A DNA stretch of 40,962 nt from a virus: the IMG/VR virus record IMGVR_UViG_3300025646_000104, positions 1 to 40,962 of that record. The stretch is one strand, 5' to 3'. Positions 1,458 to 30,303 of this stretch are shown piece by piece. The position numbers were made by a program, and so were the translations under genes. How positions within the stretch are numbered: the stretch's first letter is position 1; the number at the start of each line of letters is the position of its first letter. Below the pieces are notes generated by a model. It saw only the letters and a list, made by a program, of their open reading frames with translations. It did not search any database and had not been told where the DNA came from.

Positions 1458-2524
1458 TGGCACCGATTCAGCTGTGCAGCGCAGCCAAGCATTACAAAGA
1501 GCTGTCGCATCAGCTAGCAGCCTGGAACTGGTTGCAAGGTCAGCTAAGCGATCAGGTGCTCAGTGAATTTGCAGAGCTGTACCGCGCAGACCCAGAACCC
1601 AAGCAACTTTTGCCGCCAGCATGGCTTGCGCCAGCGCTAAAGATCATCCGTGAGTTTGAAGGCTGCAAGCTGGAGGCCTACAAGTGCCCAGCTGGCGTCT
1701 GGACTATCGGTTGGGGCACAACCCGCCTAATGGATGCACCGGTGCGCAGTGGCGACAAGATTAGTCAGGCACTGGCTGATGAGCTGCTGCAGAACGAGGT
1801 GGAAAACCTGTTCGGCCCTGGTGTGCTGCACCTGCTGCCGCTGGCGAAGCAATGGAACCCAGAGCAGGTCGGCGCCTTGGTGAGCTTTGCCTACAACCTT
1901 GGCCTCGGTGCGCTGGAAGAAAGCACGCTGCGCAAACGCCTGCTGGCCGGTGAAGAGCCATGCAAGGTCGTGCGCGAGGAGCTGCCCCGCTGGGTTCATG
2001 CTGGTGAAGCTGTTCTGGCTGGCCTAGAGCGCCGCCGTGCAGCAGAGATTGCGCTGTTCTGCGGTGAGAAGCGCCTACAAAGTCCGCCGCAGCAGGGATC
2101 ACCGCGACTGACGCCACAGTCACCTTTCAGTGCCAAGCTCACGCCCAACATCAGGCTCGGCGAGTTCGCTTTAGATCAAGCTGCCCGCCGCTTTCAACAG
2201 CAGCACCAGATCGAAACGGCCACCACGCTGGCCAACTTCATGGAGAAGGTGCGGCGCGAGTTCAAAGGTTTGCCAGTGATTATCACCAGCGGCTACAGGC
2301 CCAAGGCTGTCAACGATGCCGTGGGTGGTGCCAAGAACTCAGAACACCTCTACAGCCGCGCCAATGAAGGCGCTGTGGACTTCTACATCGAAGGCGTGCC
2401 GATCCTGCAAGTGCAGGCCTACTGCGACAAGCACTGGCCGTATTCCGTTGGCTACGGCGCGCCAAAGGGCTTTGTGCATCTCGGTCGCCGCGCAGACGGA
2501 CAACGCCGCCGCTGGAACTACTGA
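1457..2524 (+). CDS. Two-domain endolysin: GH24 lysozyme plus M15 peptidase
   Basis: A 355-aa peptidoglycan-degrading enzyme. Residues about 55-205 are a GH24 (T4-type) lysozyme. E68, C77 and T83 have the exact E-x8-(D/C)-x5-T spacing of the catalytic triad, with cysteine in the middle position, followed by TIGWGTT. Residues about 230-355 are an M15-type D,D-/L,D-peptidase: 'SGYRPKAVNDAVGG', then H297, D308 and H341 as probable zinc ligands. The two domains would cut glycan and peptide bonds respectively. There is no signal peptide, so a holin is expected. ATG at 1457 is chosen over a TTG at 1442 because it forms the TAATG coupling with the upstream gene. Confidence 0.88.
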   Translation: MAPIQLCSAAKHYKELSHQLAAWNWLQGQLSDQVLSEFAELYRADPEPKQLLPPAWLAPALKIIREFEGCKLEAYKCPAGVWTIGWGTTRLMDAPVRSGDKISQALADELLQNEVENLFGPGVLHLLPLAKQWNPEQVGALVSFAYNLGLGALEESTLRKRLLAGEEPCKVVREELPRWVHAGEAVLAGLERRRAAEIALFCGEKRLQSPPQQGSPRLTPQSPFSAKLTPNIRLGEFALDQAARRFQQQHQIETATTLANFMEKVRREFKGLPVIITSGYRPKAVNDAVGGAKNSEHLYSRANEGAVDFYIEGVPILQVQAYCDKHWPYSVGYGAPKGFVHLGRRADGQRRRWNY

Positions 2525-2525
2525 T

Positions 2526-2711
2526 ATGAGCGAACCCAACATCAGCCGCCGCATTCAGCCTGGCCTCTGGATTGTGGAGCGCCCCAAGACTGGCGTGAAA
2601 GTGTGGATGGCCATGGCCAATGGCATCACCTACATGAGCTACGACGAGAACAGCACACGGCTCTGGCTGAGCCGTGAACTGGACGAGCCTGAACCACCAG
2701 CGGCGGCCTAG
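2526..2711 (+). CDS. Small unknown protein at the end of the lysis operon
   Basis: A 61-aa protein, ATG at 2526 two bases after the endolysin stop. It has a compact beta-rich pattern (QPGLWIVERPKTGVKVWMAM, then YMSYDENSTRLWL) and a proline-rich tail. No known family. The close spacing makes it the last gene of the lysis operon. Promoter P1 begins at the base after its stop. Confidence 0.6.
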   Translation: MSEPNISRRIQPGLWIVERPKTGVKVWMAMANGITYMSYDENSTRLWLSRELDEPEPPAAA

Positions 2712-2740
2712 TTGACTAGCGCTAGCGCATAGGCTAGTCT
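2712..2740 (+). promoter_or_regulatory. Sigma-70-like promoter P1 with CTAGC operator
   Basis: -35 TTGACT (2712-2717), 17-base spacer, -10 TAGTCT (2735-2740). The spacer contains CTAGCGCATAGGCTAG overlapping both hexamers. The same TTGAC-17-TA layout with CTAGCG/GGCTAG in the spacer occurs at 6822-6850 and 12535-12563. It points right, toward the membrane-anchored HTH gene at 2789. Confidence 0.65.
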
Positions 2741-2788
2741 TATGAGGTCAGAGTTCCTCGGCTCTGGCACAGCTATTTCAACTCCGCC

Positions 2789-2977
2789 ATGACAACCACC
2801 TTCGCGTGGGTGGCGGCAATCTTCCTCCTTCCGTTTGCACTCCTCTTTGTGCTGACGGAATCTCGCCAGCAGCGGGCCATTGGTCTGCGTCGCTCTGGCT
2901 GGTCCTACAAGCGGATTGCTGCTGCTCTCAACTGTTCACCTACCACTGCTCGCCGGCTTGTCACGCAAGCCCTTTGA
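2789..2977 (+). CDS. Membrane-anchored helix-turn-helix protein
   Basis: A 62-aa protein. Residues 5-23 (FAWVAAIFLLPFALLFVLT) form one transmembrane helix. Residues about 30-62 form a resolvase-like helix-turn-helix, GWSYKRIAAALNCSPTTARR. It is expected to sit in the inner membrane with the DNA-binding part in the cytoplasm. Its own promoter with an operator-like spacer lies 49 bases upstream. Role unknown; a regulator tied to the membrane or a small anti-host protein are both possible. Confidence 0.65.
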   Translation: MTTTFAWVAAIFLLPFALLFVLTESRQQRAIGLRRSGWSYKRIAAALNCSPTTARRLVTQAL

Positions 2978-3140
2978 AATCATTAAGCATTCATGCAGGA
3001 TTTCAGCCTGCCACCTTTGACCGTGTTCTGTGCAATACCCAAGGCCACATACTCGCCACTTCATACCTCCTTTCGTTTTGATGTATTCGATCACTGGTTC
3101 TTCCAACGGAATACTTAACCCAACCGTCTAGGTTCCCGCT
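2978..3140. other. Intergenic gap before the NblA-like gene
   Basis: 163 bases, AT-richer than its surroundings. It holds a short hairpin (GCAGG/CCTGC near 2997-3013) without a T tract. Several TTGA-like hexamers occur (near 3017 and 3078), but none has a convincing -10 at 16-18 bases, so I call no promoter. A start signal for the NblA-like gene must lie here. Confidence 0.35.
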
Positions 3141-3362
3141 ATGGCATGGGGTGAGTGGATGGTGCCCCAGCCGGGGCCAGAGCACCTTCTCACCTTGGAG
3201 CGTCAGAAGCGAGCGGTTGAAAGCTACGATTTGGCACAAGCGCAGGCAATGCTGATCAAGCTGTGTCAGCTCTCCATGCAACAAGACTTGATCATTCGCG
3301 GCGCTACGCGGCGGATCGCAGAGCTTGAATGCACTCTTGCCCTTGAAGACCGCCAAGTTTAA
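3141..3362 (+). CDS. NblA/Ycf18-like protein (putative phycobilisome degradation protein)
   Basis: A 73-aa protein. The region LTLERQKRAVESYDL-AQAQ-AMLIKLCQLSM-QQ-LIIRG follows the NblA pattern: a helix with scattered charges, a 'sleQAQelL..Ly.q' turn, then a second amphipathic helix. Length fits NblA (about 55-75 aa). NblA is an adaptor that targets phycobilisomes to Clp protease, and freshwater cyanophages are known to carry it. The match is by eye and the family is short and variable, so this is tentative. The gene stands alone and its 3' end overlaps the convergent sigma gene by 59 bases. Confidence 0.5.
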   Translation: MAWGEWMVPQPGPEHLLTLERQKRAVESYDLAQAQAMLIKLCQLSMQQDLIIRGATRRIAELECTLALEDRQV

Positions 3363-4218
3363 GCCGTAATGTATTCATTGCACGCTTGTGCATCTGTTCT
3401 GTTGCCTGACGGCTGACGTTCAAATCGTTGCAGATCTGCGTGAATGGAGTTGGCCGGGAATCGCCGCAGTAGTAGCGCCTGCGGATGATGTGCTGATACT
3501 CCTTGCTTAGATCAGCAATCGCATCCTCTAGTAGATCGCTGTACTGCCGCAGGTCATCGGGTTCAGGATCTAGGCTGTTTGGATCAGCCACCACGTCAAT
3601 GAAGGCGCTGTAGTTGTCACCGCCTGGCATCTTCTGATCCAAACTCACCACGCCTGCATTGTGGTTGAGGTAACCCAGCAGCGTTTGCTTTTGAATGCCG
3701 CAGTGATCCGCTACGTCTTGCACCGCTGGCAGCTTGCCGCGCTCTAGCAGGTGCTTTTGCATGTAGTCCATCGCCTTGCGCAGCTGGTCGTTCGCCTGCA
3801 TCGGCAGGTGAATCATTCGGCTGTGGCGATTGATCGCTCGTGTAATCCCCTGGCGAATCCACCAATAGGCATAGGTGCTGAACTTGTAGCCTAGGCCAGG
3901 GTCAAACTTTAAGATCCCCGAATCCATGCCGACAAGACCTTCTTGGATCAGGTCTTCAAGGCTCAAGCTGCCGCCGTAGCGTTTGTACTTTCCAGCGACG
4001 TTGACAGCCAGACGGACATTAGACAAAAAGAAACGCTCACGAGCGCGGCGCCCTTTGTTGATGATGCCTTGCTGGCGTCGTGTGGGTTTCTCAATGTCTT
4101 TGAGCGCCATCCAAGCCTGCACTTGACGCGCCAGCTCGATTTCCTCATCTGCAGTGAGGAGTGGGTAGCGGCGCGAATGTTGAATGATCCAATCAACGGA
4201 TGTGCCAGTCGTGGCCAT
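3304..4218 (-). CDS. RNA polymerase sigma-70 family factor (primary/group 2 type)
   Basis: A 304-aa protein with all core regions: region 1.2 (residues 7-40, LLTADEEIELARQV), region 2 (about 57-130, including LSLEDLIQEGLVG and YKFSTYAYWWIRQGITRAI), region 3 (about 134-210) and region 4 (about 225-288, with HTH FTQICNDLNVSRQATEQ). It should bind host core RNA polymerase and redirect transcription. It closes the leftward early operon, so it is probably made early and used for middle or late genes. ATG at 4218 is chosen because it opens directly on region 1.2; longer starts would overlap the dCTP deaminase gene. No clear Shine-Dalgarno sequence. Confidence 0.92.
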   Translation of the reverse strand: MATTGTSVDWIIQHSRRYPLLTADEEIELARQVQAWMALKDIEKPTRRQQGIINKGRRARERFFLSNVRLAVNVAGKYKRYGGSLSLEDLIQEGLVGMDSGILKFDPGLGYKFSTYAYWWIRQGITRAINRHSRMIHLPMQANDQLRKAMDYMQKHLLERGKLPAVQDVADHCGIQKQTLLGYLNHNAGVVSLDQKMPGGDNYSAFIDVVADPNSLDPEPDDLRQYSDLLEDAIADLSKEYQHIIRRRYYCGDSRPTPFTQICNDLNVSRQATEQMHKRAMNTLRLKLGGLQGQECIQALRSAA

Positions 4219-4288
4219 CGTCAGCAGTGTGGGAGAAAGTGATTGGTGTGTTGGGCCGGCACCTGTCGATGACCGGCCACGTTTGCGA

Positions 4289-4870
4289 TCAGACTGTTGC
4301 CAGCGTGACGCCGTGCTCTTGGTCCTGATACTTGCCAGAGCGTTTCTCGTAGGTGATGTCACAAGGATCACCCTCAAAGAACAGCAGCTGACAGATACCC
4401 TCGTTGGCATAGATGCGGCAGTCAGCACCGGAGGAGTTAGAGAACTCCAAGGTGAGGTGGCCGCGCCAACCGGCTTCTGCAGGGGTCATGTTGGCGATCA
4501 CACCCATGCGGGCATAGGTGGACTTGCCAAGGCAGATCACCGTGACATTTTCCGGTACGCAGAGCTTTTCTAGGGCGACGCCCAAGCCGTAGCTATGAGC
4601 GGGCAACACGAAGTAGCGGCCCCGTTCATCGCTGTGCAACTCGACGTTACGCAGGTTGTCAGGGTTGAACGCCTTGGGATCCATGATCGTGCCAGGTACA
4701 TGCTGGAACACGCGGAAGTCCGCAGGTGAGAGGCGGATGTCGTAGCCGTAGGAACTGCAGCCGTAGCTCAGCACCTTGTGGCTGGCGACCTGGCGGATGA
4801 GCGTTGGCTCAAAGGGCTGGATCATGCCGGCGTCAGCACGGACACGAATCCAGTGGTCGGCTTTGATCAC
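4289..4870 (-). CDS. dcd: dCTP deaminase
   Basis: A 193-aa enzyme converting dCTP to dUTP, feeding dTTP synthesis. Family signatures are present in order: SSYGYDIRL (substrate loop), GKSTYARMGVIANMTPAEAGWRGH (with the catalytic glutamate in PAEAGW), 'YANEGICQLLFF' and SGKYQDQ near the end. GTG at 4870 overlaps the stop of the upstream gene (GTGA), so this start is preferred over longer options. It is the second-last gene of the leftward early operon. Confidence 0.93.
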   Translation of the reverse strand: MIKADHWIRVRADAGMIQPFEPTLIRQVASHKVLSYGCSSYGYDIRLSPADFRVFQHVPGTIMDPKAFNPDNLRNVELHSDERGRYFVLPAHSYGLGVALEKLCVPENVTVICLGKSTYARMGVIANMTPAEAGWRGHLTLEFSNSSGADCRIYANEGICQLLFFEGDPCDITYEKRSGKYQDQEHGVTLATV

Positions 4871-7520: not shown

Positions 7521-7534
7521 GCTAGCGGCTAGCC
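7521..7534. promoter_or_regulatory. Operator-like GCTAGCGGCTAGCC between integrase and regulator
   Basis: The string GCTAGCGGCTAGCC contains the CTAGCG and GGCTAGCC half-elements of promoters P2 and P3, in direct contact. It spans the integrase stop codon (7529-7531) and lies 12 bases upstream of the regulator start at 7508. It could let the regulator control its own gene. No clear -35/-10 pair was found here. Confidence 0.45.
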
Positions 7535-8956
7535 TAACCCTAGGGAGGAGACGGCGCCGCAGCCCTCAAGCTTCAGCACCACCGCCTCCACCGCTCGATC
7601 CCGCACCAGCACCTGCTCCACCCAGTCGGTGAACATCCGCCGCGTGTCGTCAGGGTTGCTCTGCAGCAGCTGCCAGTAGGCCGGATCATCCAATGCCTTG
7701 CGGATGTCACGGCTGCTTAGATCCACATCCAAGCGATGCCCGTGCATCTGCAGTGCGTTCTCCAGCTTCATGCGCTTGCGCAGAATCGCGTCGCTCAGAT
7801 CTGGGTCGCGCCGCTGCTCCAGCTCGCGGATCTCCTTCTCCAGCAGCATCGCCTCATCCAGCTGCCCAGCCATCACGCCGCTCTGCAGCACGGTGTAGGC
7901 CAAGAGCTTTTCCTTGTGCTGCTGCAACTTCGCCCAGATCGCTTCCTTGACGGTCTGCACCTTGATCCGATTGCGCCTCTCGCTCGCGCAAGGGAAGTAG
8001 GCGCAGCGCAGATAGATCGGCCCCAGTCGCACATGGTGCTGGTAGCTCATGTGCCGCCCGCAGTGGCTGCAGGTCACCAGCTTGGTTAGCTCGCGTACGT
8101 AGCCCTTCAGCAGGCCGCTGCTCTTGCGGTCGGTGTGCTCGTGGATCAGCGCCTGCACCTTGGCGTGTTCCACGGTCGTGATCAGCGGCTCGTGCGCTTC
8201 GGCGATCACCTCCTTGTATTCCCCCGCCTTGAGCCTGCGCTTTTTCAGCCGCCCGTCTTTGTCTCTGTAGGTCTCGTCGTGCCCATAGACCCGGTAGCCA
8301 GCCAAGGTCGGGTTCATCAGCCAGCTGCGCATCCCCGGCACGCTGGTCCACGGGCAGCCCGGCAGCTCCTTGGCTTGCCTCAGCAGCGGTCGCAGCAGTC
8401 CATCTTTCAAAAACTGCTGCACCAGCCAGCGGGCTGAGTCGGCAGTCTCAGGGTCCAGCTCGTAGTTGGTGCGCTCTGCGTTGAAGCGGTAGCCATAGGG
8501 CGCCTTCGGTCCCAGCGGAATCAGCTGCTTGCGCTGATACGCCCGTCCGTGCCGTACCCGTTCACTCAGCCGCTCGCTCTCGGCCTGGCCGAGGTTGATC
8601 AGCATTCGCGCCACCAAGCGCCCGCCGATGGTGGCTAGGTCCAAGGCGTCATCCAGCGCCAACAGGCTTGGCGTGTCCTCAGCGCTGAAGTAGCTGAGCA
8701 GCTCAGCGCCGTGGGCCATGGAGCGGCTCAGGCGATCCAAGCGGGTGCAGATCACCCGATCCAGCTGCCCGGCCCGGCACGCAGCCATGAGAGCGTTGAG
8801 CTGTTGCCGGTCGTCCTTGGTGCCGGAAGCCACGTCGATGAACTCGACCGTCTCGTGGCCAGCTGCCGCAGCACGCAGCCGATCTAGCTGCTGCTCAAGC
8901 GCCGCCTCCTGCTCGTCAGAGCCGGTGGACACCCTGGCGTAAAGCCCGATGCGCAT
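7529..8956 (-). CDS. Large serine recombinase (phage integrase)
   Basis: A 475-aa site-specific recombinase that should integrate and excise the phage genome. The N-terminal resolvase domain starts RIGLYARVSTG with catalytic S10, followed by CTRLDRLSRSM. The middle is a 'recombinase' domain (APYGYRFN, PGMRSWLMNPTLAGYRVYG). A zinc ribbon follows near residues 300-330 (CSHCGRHMSYQHH...RCAYFPC). The C-terminus is a coiled coil (EKEIRELEQRRDPDLSDAI). ATG at 8956 is supported by an AAGGAGG Shine-Dalgarno (8966-8972) eight bases upstream. Confidence 0.92.
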   Translation of the reverse strand: MRIGLYARVSTGSDEQEAALEQQLDRLRAAAAGHETVEFIDVASGTKDDRQQLNALMAACRAGQLDRVICTRLDRLSRSMAHGAELLSYFSAEDTPSLLALDDALDLATIGGRLVARMLINLGQAESERLSERVRHGRAYQRKQLIPLGPKAPYGYRFNAERTNYELDPETADSARWLVQQFLKDGLLRPLLRQAKELPGCPWTSVPGMRSWLMNPTLAGYRVYGHDETYRDKDGRLKKRRLKAGEYKEVIAEAHEPLITTVEHAKVQALIHEHTDRKSSGLLKGYVRELTKLVTCSHCGRHMSYQHHVRLGPIYLRCAYFPCASERRNRIKVQTVKEAIWAKLQQHKEKLLAYTVLQSGVMAGQLDEAMLLEKEIRELEQRRDPDLSDAILRKRMKLENALQMHGHRLDVDLSSRDIRKALDDPAYWQLLQSNPDDTRRMFTDWVEQVLVRDRAVEAVVLKLEGCGAVSSLGLG

Positions 8957-8972
8957 TCCGCACACCTCCTTC

Positions 8973-27772: not shown

Positions 27773-30303
27773 TGGCCATCGACATACGCGCCACCGTCAG
27801 CTGCAGCCTGGGCACGCTGATCAGCGGCAACATCAGCGACGACTACATCCAAGGCAACGGCCTAGTGAAGGTGCGGGGCAGCTGTGAGCTGAACGGTGTC
27901 GTCACCCCAAAGCCTGGCGCGGTTGTGACCTTCAGCTACACCCGCAACGGTGTAACGACCGCAATCCCGCGCAAGCTGCGGGTGCTGAGCAGCTTTGCCG
28001 ACCCGTTCCGCCGAACCACCAAGGTGGAACTGGGTTGCAAGCTGACCTACTTGGAATCGCTTGGCCCCAAACCGTCAGCATTGGACCCAGACGAAGACCG
28101 TCCAGCAACAGAAACTGGCCGTCGCCAGCAGTGCCTGAACGGTTACATTGAGTATCCAAAAGAGAACAACGAAGAAGACGGCTCCGTAATTCCCGTGCCG
28201 ATCAGCGCATCAGGGATTATGGCCAAGTGCTTGGGGGCGTTGGGCATAAGCGCTAGCGGTAATCCGCTCACAAACCGCTTCATGATTGACGAGTTTGATT
28301 TCTCGTCAGGCTATGTGCAGGTGTTAAGCGACTTGCTTCTCTCGGAGGGCTACTTCGGCTATCTCGATGCCACCGAAACTCTGCAGGTGATCAGCCTGCA
28401 TGACGCTTCCACTACCGGCCCACGCATCACTAAAGACGATGTTGTTGACATCAACGGAATCGGCGTCGGCGAGCTTCCCGGTGAAGCTGTATATGTGCGT
28501 TATCAATCGCTAAGGCTTGTTGAAGACAAGCAAGCCCAGACAGAGCAGGAGCGAGAGGAGCGTGAGCAAAGCTACGCAAAGAACAGCGACGACTCTTGGG
28601 AGTTTGAGAGCCAAACGGGTGAGCCAGAGCCGCACACTATTCGTTACGTGTTTGGCGGTCAGACCTACGAAGAGACTTACGACCACACTCCTTACACTGA
28701 AACAAGAACAACCTTTGGTAAGAACGACGGCTGGGACAATGACACCTGCGTGATCTATAGCTCCAAAGGTGAGGGTGCTGATTTAAGCAACAAGCCGATT
28801 CGACGGCTTACCCGCAACCGCAGGATGCTAGCAGAGGCAGCTGGTTCCTATGTAGCGCAACTGCGTAGTGCAGACATTGGCGTCAATGCTCGCCTGCAGG
28901 CGAATGAAGAAATCGAGACTCTTTACAAGTACAACGAAGACGGTGAGCAAGTGCAGCAGATAGAGCGGCGCTATCTGCCTGAGTTTGCTTGGGTTGGGAG
29001 CTTAGACATCAGCGCTGTCTACCAAAGCGGCGGCACCACTAGCTGGTACGTAGTCAGTTCAGATCTGATCTTAATCAGCGAGGTTATTACTGACACCGAA
29101 ATTATCAAGTCACCGAGACCACGCGGCATGTATCTGGCGGCTGGCGAGGAATGGCTCCCTACGGTCCTTGGCACCAAAACAACTACTACCACAAGGGTCA
29201 ACTGGGCACTTTCACTTGGCGGTCAGCAGGCCATTGCAGAGATCAAAGAGAACAGTCCTTTTAGTAATGCCGACCAGCTAGCCGCTTTTCTTAACTCAGC
29301 CAAAGAAAACGTAGTAACTGAGGACGTTCAGGTATCCACCCAACGTCAGTACGGCTTACCTGCGGGTGAGGTTAGACCGCCAGCTAGCGAGCGTCTCTTG
29401 CAGGCGTATAGCGCCCAAGCTGGCGAGGACTCCAGCATCAACACCGAAACCGTGGAGGAGCTGGCGTTTGCTGCGGGCGGCACGGGCGGCGGTTTGGCAC
29501 GGGACGTGGTGTTCACCATGCCGTACCAAAGCGACGACTACCTGAGCGCGTCTGGTCTGATCGTGCGCGGTGATGCAGCAATCAAGGCGCAGCGTTACGG
29601 CACCATCCAAAACCGCCTGCTGCTGGGCAACCGCTACGGCGTCAACCTGCAACTCCACCCGAAGCATTTACCAGCAGCGCCGTTTGCGCCGATCTACCTG
29701 AAGAGCGACAGCCTTACGGTGCAATACCGCGCCAACGGCATGAGCTGGGCATTTTCCAGCGATGGCGTTGTGGCCAGCGTCGATGCGCTGTATTGGGGCG
29801 TAGCCGGCGGCAGCGGTGTGCCGTGGGTGCCGGTGGCGCCAGGTGTTACCACCTTCCCAGACGAGCCAACTGTCACCGTCAACCCGAGCACAGGCGTTGC
29901 CGAAGCAACGGTGGCTGCGGTCATCCCCCCTTGGAATGAAACGCTAACGCTGCTGGGCCGCAGCCGCACCCGCTGCGATGTGGTGCCCTATCCCTATGCG
30001 CTGAGCAGCACCACCGAGTTGGGTGCTCTGGTGACACGCACTCGTGCGTTGTATGCCCTGCGCCTCGAAGCTGGCACCGGCGCGTTCGGTGTAACCGGCC
30101 AGCAGGCCAACCCCAACCCAGCAGAGACCGGCAACCTTGTGTTGACGGGACATCCCGCCACATTGCTGCACCACTATGTGTTGCAAGCAAAGGCCGGGGC
30201 GTTCTTCCTAACCCCAGAACCAGACAACTCGTATTTTGAGAACTGGGCATTGCAGCACTACAGCTTTGAGAGCGAACTGCAGCCTGTCTGGTGGGCTGAC
30301 TAA
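27772..30303 (+). CDS. Large tail-tip/hub protein (Tal-like)
   Basis: An 843-aa protein. The first 200 residues are beta-rich (IDIRATVSCSLGTLISGNIS, 'GAVVTFSYTRNGVTTAIPRK', LGCKLTYLESLGPK), as in hub proteins of baseplates. The middle is variable and charged. The C-terminal part (VPWVPVAPGVTTFPDEPTVT, YFENWALQHYSFESELQPVW) looks like a receptor-facing domain. Order tape measure-Dit-hub supports the role. Coupled to the previous gene by TGATG. Confidence 0.7.
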   Translation: MAIDIRATVSCSLGTLISGNISDDYIQGNGLVKVRGSCELNGVVTPKPGAVVTFSYTRNGVTTAIPRKLRVLSSFADPFRRTTKVELGCKLTYLESLGPKPSALDPDEDRPATETGRRQQCLNGYIEYPKENNEEDGSVIPVPISASGIMAKCLGALGISASGNPLTNRFMIDEFDFSSGYVQVLSDLLLSEGYFGYLDATETLQVISLHDASTTGPRITKDDVVDINGIGVGELPGEAVYVRYQSLRLVEDKQAQTEQEREEREQSYAKNSDDSWEFESQTGEPEPHTIRYVFGGQTYEETYDHTPYTETRTTFGKNDGWDNDTCVIYSSKGEGADLSNKPIRRLTRNRRMLAEAAGSYVAQLRSADIGVNARLQANEEIETLYKYNEDGEQVQQIERRYLPEFAWVGSLDISAVYQSGGTTSWYVVSSDLILISEVITDTEIIKSPRPRGMYLAAGEEWLPTVLGTKTTTTTRVNWALSLGGQQAIAEIKENSPFSNADQLAAFLNSAKENVVTEDVQVSTQRQYGLPAGEVRPPASERLLQAYSAQAGEDSSINTETVEELAFAAGGTGGGLARDVVFTMPYQSDDYLSASGLIVRGDAAIKAQRYGTIQNRLLLGNRYGVNLQLHPKHLPAAPFAPIYLKSDSLTVQYRANGMSWAFSSDGVVASVDALYWGVAGGSGVPWVPVAPGVTTFPDEPTVTVNPSTGVAEATVAAVIPPWNETLTLLGRSRTRCDVVPYPYALSSTTELGALVTRTRALYALRLEAGTGAFGVTGQQANPNPAETGNLVLTGHPATLLHHYVLQAKAGAFFLTPEPDNSYFENWALQHYSFESELQPVWWAD

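Follow-up and report, generated by a model that had tools for sequence, protein, structure and literature searches.

In the portions of the cited papers drawn on here, NblA is described as a small helix-loop-helix protein (PMC4103541) that forms a four-helix bundle of dimers (PMC7966870). Its N-terminal LTMEQ motif serves ClpC (PMC5083919, PMC4103541), and its C-terminal residues bind the phycobilisome (PMC5083919). Two modes of action have been proposed for NblA, in which it either directs ClpC-ClpP to phycobiliproteins or acts by mimicry to loosen the antenna rods; the same portion of the 2012 paper leaves open which applies (PMC4103541). For the marine cyanomyovirus proteins, assignment as NblA rests on HHpred, according to the part of PMC9602691 used. 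The literature drawn on, likewise in part, also includes PMC6157547 and PMC3751600.

We analyzed a 40,962-nucleotide stretch of viral DNA (IMG/VR record IMGVR_UViG_3300025646_000104; hereafter the window), in which a 73-amino-acid (aa) open reading frame (ORF) had been flagged as a possible auxiliary gene of the NblA type. The original prediction noted that NblA is known in some freshwater cyanophages; the portion of PMC9602691 used widens this statement, as phage nblA is not found in freshwater only.

A conserved small gene in the window

The ORF was present exactly where predicted, with the following features.

3141-3362, plus strand: NblA-like gene, ATG start, 73 aa, stop codon included (based on the ORF call, a PF04485 match, relatives and selection)
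3141-3161, plus strand: conserved M-x-W-x-x-W-M head, codons 1-7, with a predicted short helix at residues 3-7
3195-3299, plus strand: stretch matching PF04485 (profile positions 10-44 of 50), which does not reach into the region shared with the neighboring sigma factor gene

Relatives of the 73-aa protein were found to be encoded in 72 IMG/VR loci, as confirmed by tblastn, and more distant sets of relatives were reached from locus L075 and from phage KBS-S-2A. Selection was analyzed in codons 1-54, the region outside the overlap, after setting aside L069, L070, L067, the distant groups, and copies that were truncated or carried insertions. The median pairwise pN/pS was 0.25 (47 distinct sequences, 1081 pairs). 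Differences from the window at codon positions 1, 2 and 3 numbered 493, 259 and 1059, respectively, and in 62 of 64 sequences both alternative forward frames were interrupted by stops. The 73-aa ORF is a real gene under purifying selection; a chance ORF is ruled out by the 72 IMG/VR relatives and the pN/pS of 0.25. Because the PF04485-like stretch lies outside the overlap, the sigma factor gene does not account for its conservation.

A recent copy of a host gene was also considered and rejected. Genome contigs scanned for relatives of the protein yielded none, which says little given that two short N-terminal peptide patterns served as the query; scanning with the sigma factor instead likewise found nothing. 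A plasmid search with an NblA fragment returned two weak Nostoc matches.

Similarity to NblA

The sole Pfam match of the window protein was NblA (PF04485; hmmscan, E 0.0046). The match was specific but fell below the gathering cut-off of 25 bits (17.8 bits for the window protein), as did every other PF04485 score inspected, among them that of the member at L045 (21.2 bits). The protein is very diverged, as first described. Across the family, 23 of 32 members matched PF04485 at E values up to 10 (best 2.4e-4). Searched singly with PF04485, the members from S-CBS1, KBS-S-2A, S-LBS1, L075, L079, L083, L118 and L120 gave no match; the same was true of the NblA published for S-SCSM1 and of five myovirus relatives. 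PHROGs and NCBIfam contained no match to the window protein.

In reciprocal searches, the family profile found NblA ahead of anything else, both in the PDB set and in the phage records, where it missed two of the known or likely cases. A 32-member profile searched against 177,635 PDB sequences gave six matches at E<=10; four were NblA, including the top two (E 0.0028 and 0.0055). A 40-member profile was searched against 21 phage records and matched all 8 that belong to the family. Among the 13 records outside the family, it matched only S-SCSM1 (E 0.0016) and Ma-LMM01 (E 0.0059), each time at the gene annotated as nblA. The two that it missed were S-TIM5, with a published NblA, and Nodularia phage 2AV2, with a PF04485-like gene. 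NblAs have also been published for podoviruses; the five podovirus records searched, which may or may not include those, gave no match with either PF04485 or the family profile.

Profile-profile alignment with hhalign gave a probability of 83% for the family against classical NblA (P 9e-6, 55 columns) and of 91% against myovirus NblA (P 1.3e-6, 43 columns), while the classical and myovirus sets aligned to each other at only 22.5%. With the settings of our null test, under which the two probabilities were 86.5% and 92.6%, none of 200 column shuffles reached either real score. The real classical and myovirus comparisons scored 33.1 and 35.5, and with reversed profiles the scores fell to 9.1 and 10.9. 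The window group alone (29 rows) aligned at 78% to classical and 67% to myovirus NblA; the marine and estuarine group alone (11 rows) aligned at 9.7% and 78%, respectively. These sequence comparisons support the originally predicted NblA-like reading, in the form of a probable distant homologue that lies below Pfam's formal threshold.

Predicted structure

An AlphaFold2 model built from 40 sequences had a pLDDT of 90.9 and a pTM of only 0.61. It contains a Trp-rich helix (residues 3-7) and a short arm (13-27) that turns tightly into a long arm (31-72). The model thus has the small helix-loop-helix form of NblA in helices 13-27 and 31-72, and shows the two-helix hairpin that had been named as a structural check. 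Foldseek found no match to the model in the PDB, but this negative cannot be weighed, because a Ma-LMM01-type NblA modeled as a control itself came out poorly (pLDDT 69.9, a single long helix). VIA likewise gave no PDB match, there being nothing to compare after the empty Foldseek search.

In the BFVD, the model resembled D6PIK3 (Foldseek E 4.4e-3, 31% identity), a 71-aa viral protein without a name and perhaps a further family member; the second match was the unnamed A0A8S0I5P4 (E 0.063).

A DNA-binding helix-turn-helix was rejected for the 73-aa protein, which has no such Pfam match. A nearby ORF at 2789-2977 (plus strand) does have one (HTH_23, E 8.2e-8); it encodes 62 aa with a hydrophobic N-terminus as judged by eye, and has relatives in 10 of 88 loci.

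Cultured members of the family

Three isolates were found to carry family members, namely S-CBS1 (gp26), KBS-S-2A (CPKG_00010) and the freshwater phage S-LBS1 (A32), all labeled "hypothetical protein" in the isolates' records. The S-CBS1 and KBS-S-2A members were found at about 35% identity. A32 was missed by tblastn but aligned to the family at 95.9% with hhalign (71 columns, 27% identity), and was the sole six-frame match in the S-LBS1 record at E<=1 (E 1.4e-10). According to the isolate records, the hosts are CB0201 for S-CBS1, WH7803 for KBS-S-2A and Synechococcus TCC793 for S-LBS1, so that the known family members infect phycobilisome-bearing Synechococcus, a point in favor of the NblA reading.

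In the portions of the NblA and cyanophage literature drawn on, no nblA assignment to these three phages was found. The term "nblA" is absent from the main text of the S-LBS1 paper, "nbl" is absent from the KBS2A paper in the portion used, and the part of a 2017 table seen gives no photosynthetic gene for the S-CBS1 group (PMC5332604). An earlier assignment in cyanosiphoviruses may nevertheless exist, given that a figure legend in the portion of PMC9602691 used includes a cyanosiphovirus symbol, and given Nadel et al. 2019, a study represented here through PMC9602691.

Neighboring genes

The gene is flanked by two conserved genes on the opposite strand.

2936-3106, minus strand: conserved divergent small ORF (phrog_36325, E 3.6e-8)
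3304-4428, minus strand: convergent sigma-70-family gene, longest ORF (Sigma70_r2, E 5.4e-16; phrog_351, E 1.9e-49)
3304-3362, both genes: tail-to-tail overlap of the NblA-like and sigma factor genes, 59 bp

The predicted convergence with a phage sigma factor was borne out, whereas the description of the gene as standing alone was wrong: on one side lies the conserved divergent ORF, and on the other the convergent sigma factor gene, which usually overlaps it. The true start of the latter may be an ATG at about 4218, judging from where relatives start to align. Among relatives, the overlap ranged from 0 to 191 bp and was mostly 59 bp. The convergent sigma factor gene adjoined the NblA-like gene in 68 of 88 loci. 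The remaining 20 comprise 10 loci that end no more than 249 bases from the gene, and a marine group of 10 (L077-L086); in the five marine-group records searched, which may be fragments, there was no sigma region 2 match. Conversely, S-CBS3 has a sigma factor gene and lacks a family member. The expectation that the two genes always occur together fails in S-CBS3 and in these marine-group records.

In 78 of 88 loci, the marine group excepted, the divergent ORF adjoined the NblA-like gene. The gap between them was 23-49 bp in most relatives, and the two overlapped in two. A lysozyme gene precedes the NblA-like gene in the window and in most relatives, with a lysozyme match in 67 of 88 loci. In S-LBS1 the order is lysozyme, minus-strand ORF, A32 and minus-strand sigma factor gene.

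Several further observations were made in these regions. At L079 (4460-5356) and the similar loci L077-L086, the NblA-like gene lies without a sigma factor gene beside a dCTP deaminase-like gene, as judged by eye, and in L079 a weakly phrog_36325-like ORF (E 0.027) lies on the other side and is convergent to the NblA-like gene. The contig G001 (L007) has a second sigma-70 region 2 match at 29824-30036 (minus strand, E 1.9e-11) besides the one that adjoins the gene. The window also encodes a large serine integrase-like protein at 7529-8965 (minus strand; phrog_95, E 1.6e-58), which was found in the fetched flanks of 22 of 88 loci. If the phage is temperate, NblA would have to stay silent in lysogens.

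A repeated motif near gene starts

A copy of a short motif, and a possible second one, were identified between the divergent ORF and the NblA-like gene.

3128-3137, minus strand: GGNAANNTAG element facing the divergent ORF (GGGAACCTAG)
3108-3117, plus strand: possible degenerate GGNAANNTAG copy facing the NblA-like gene; any role in the window is a guess

In 41 distinct upstream regions of the window group, the copy facing the divergent ORF was found with no more than one mismatch in all 41 and without any in 31; for the copy facing the NblA-like gene, the corresponding numbers were 15 and 12. The window contains 13 copies versus 2.2 expected, a count reached in 0 of 200 Markov-1 simulations, although these enrichment figures are optimistic because the motif was defined after viewing this window. 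The copies are located at 691, 972, 3128 (minus), 21844, 24709 (minus), 24726, 31766, 34072, 35264, 36348, 37758 (minus), 37782 and 40699. All 13 are followed 3-33 nt downstream by a same-strand start codon opening at least 46 codons; for random positions, the rates on the two strands were 41% and 27%. The motif was above expectation in L004, L009, L026, L049 and L075, weakly or not above it in L006, L016, L043, L045 and L059, and absent from L002, L003, L118, L079, L083 and L120; it is missing at the S-CBS1, KBS-S-2A and marine-group loci. A sigma-70 promoter scan of 2400-4500 found none. We regard GGNAANNTAG as a candidate promoter or operator of the phage; that the phage sigma factor reads it is a guess.

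Proposed function and alternative explanations

We propose, with a probability of roughly 0.68, that the product of this gene is a divergent cyanosiphovirus NblA, with bleaching as its putative activity. The protein would dimerize into a four-helix bundle, as cellular NblA does, and the dimer would bind phycobiliproteins. These could then be brought to the ClpC/ClpP protease, or the antenna rods could be loosened by mimicry. In the course of infection the host antenna would thereby be stripped, which would free amino acids and reduce light capture. The gene may form its own short transcription unit between the lysis module and the sigma factor gene. Speaking against an NblA are the sub-threshold Pfam scores, the isolate and marine-group members without a PF04485 match, the two records that the profile missed, the empty PDB searches with the model, the partly kept ClpC motif and the pTM of 0.61. 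If this is true, antenna stripping reaches widespread small-genome cyanosiphoviruses, and the three isolates with cultured hosts make it readily testable.

Across the 40-member alignment, L17, L19, E20, R24, L41, A55 and I59 are invariant, as are M1, W3, W6 and M7 of the Trp-rich head (40 of 40), and the head is absent from all NblAs aligned here. At the position of LTMEQ, E14 is kept in 29 of 29 window-group rows, most of which read P-G-P-E-H; S-L-E-E is the majority reading among the 11 marine and estuarine rows. The ClpC motif thus appears to be kept only in part, and together with the invariant Trp helix this leaves room for altered targeting. It is unlikely, in our judgment, that the protein is an NblA-fold adaptor retargeted to another host protein, a single phycobiliprotein class or another protease: the invariant head and the altered LTMEQ position speak for it, but the core still retrieves classical NblA in reciprocal searches. 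Somewhat more plausible, though tentative, is a separate viral NblA branch in which the Trp-rich helix replaces the ClpC-binding motif and alters which antenna protein or protease is engaged.

The neighborhood raises two other explanations. The convergent sigma factor gene, present in 68 of 88 loci with 10 of the other 20 ending within 249 bases, could point to a partner or antagonist of that factor (an anti-sigma factor or co-activator) that resembles NblA only as a helical hairpin. Since the two genes part both ways, in S-CBS3 and in the five possibly fragmentary marine-group records, we do not read the protein as a sigma partner, and the profile matches are specific to NblA; this explanation is very improbable. 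Least probable is a small accessory protein of the lysis module or of the virion structure, its NblA likeness arising from convergence of two short helices. The location of the gene behind that for lysozyme, seen in the window and in the majority of relatives, the sub-threshold Pfam score and the empty PDB Foldseek search would fit such a protein, but column shuffles and reversed profiles score far lower than the real alignments, and NblA ranks first even though the PDB set is rich in other helical proteins. A divergent NblA remains our preferred reading.

Comparison with known NblA systems

Classical NblA (PF04485) was represented by the cyanobacterial structures 1OJH, 2Q8V, 2QDO and 3CS5 and by the Ma-LMM01 phage NblA. 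Like these, the window protein is a small acidic-basic helical protein without other domains, its core aligns with theirs, and its model forms a hairpin shaped like a helix-turn-helix. Unlike them, the window family lies below the Pfam cut-off, has a Trp-rich N-terminal helix and appears to keep the ClpC motif only in part; the W-G-L-type C-terminal end of the aligned Ma-LMM01 and 1OJH proteins is missing. The marine cyanomyovirus NblAs (S-SCSM1, S-SM2, S-SKS1, DSL-LC03, S-SCSM2R and S-TIM5) differ from the family in being about 54-66 aa long, without a Trp head, and encoded in large myovirus genomes. The isolate genes gp26, CPKG_00010 and A32 belong to the family and share the gene order of the window (minus-strand small ORF, gene, convergent sigma factor gene), the S-CBS1 and S-LBS1 members having longer C-terminal tails. 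Judged by the profile alignments, the cyanosiphovirus family may bridge the classical and marine myovirus NblA groups, which hardly recognize each other (22.5%).
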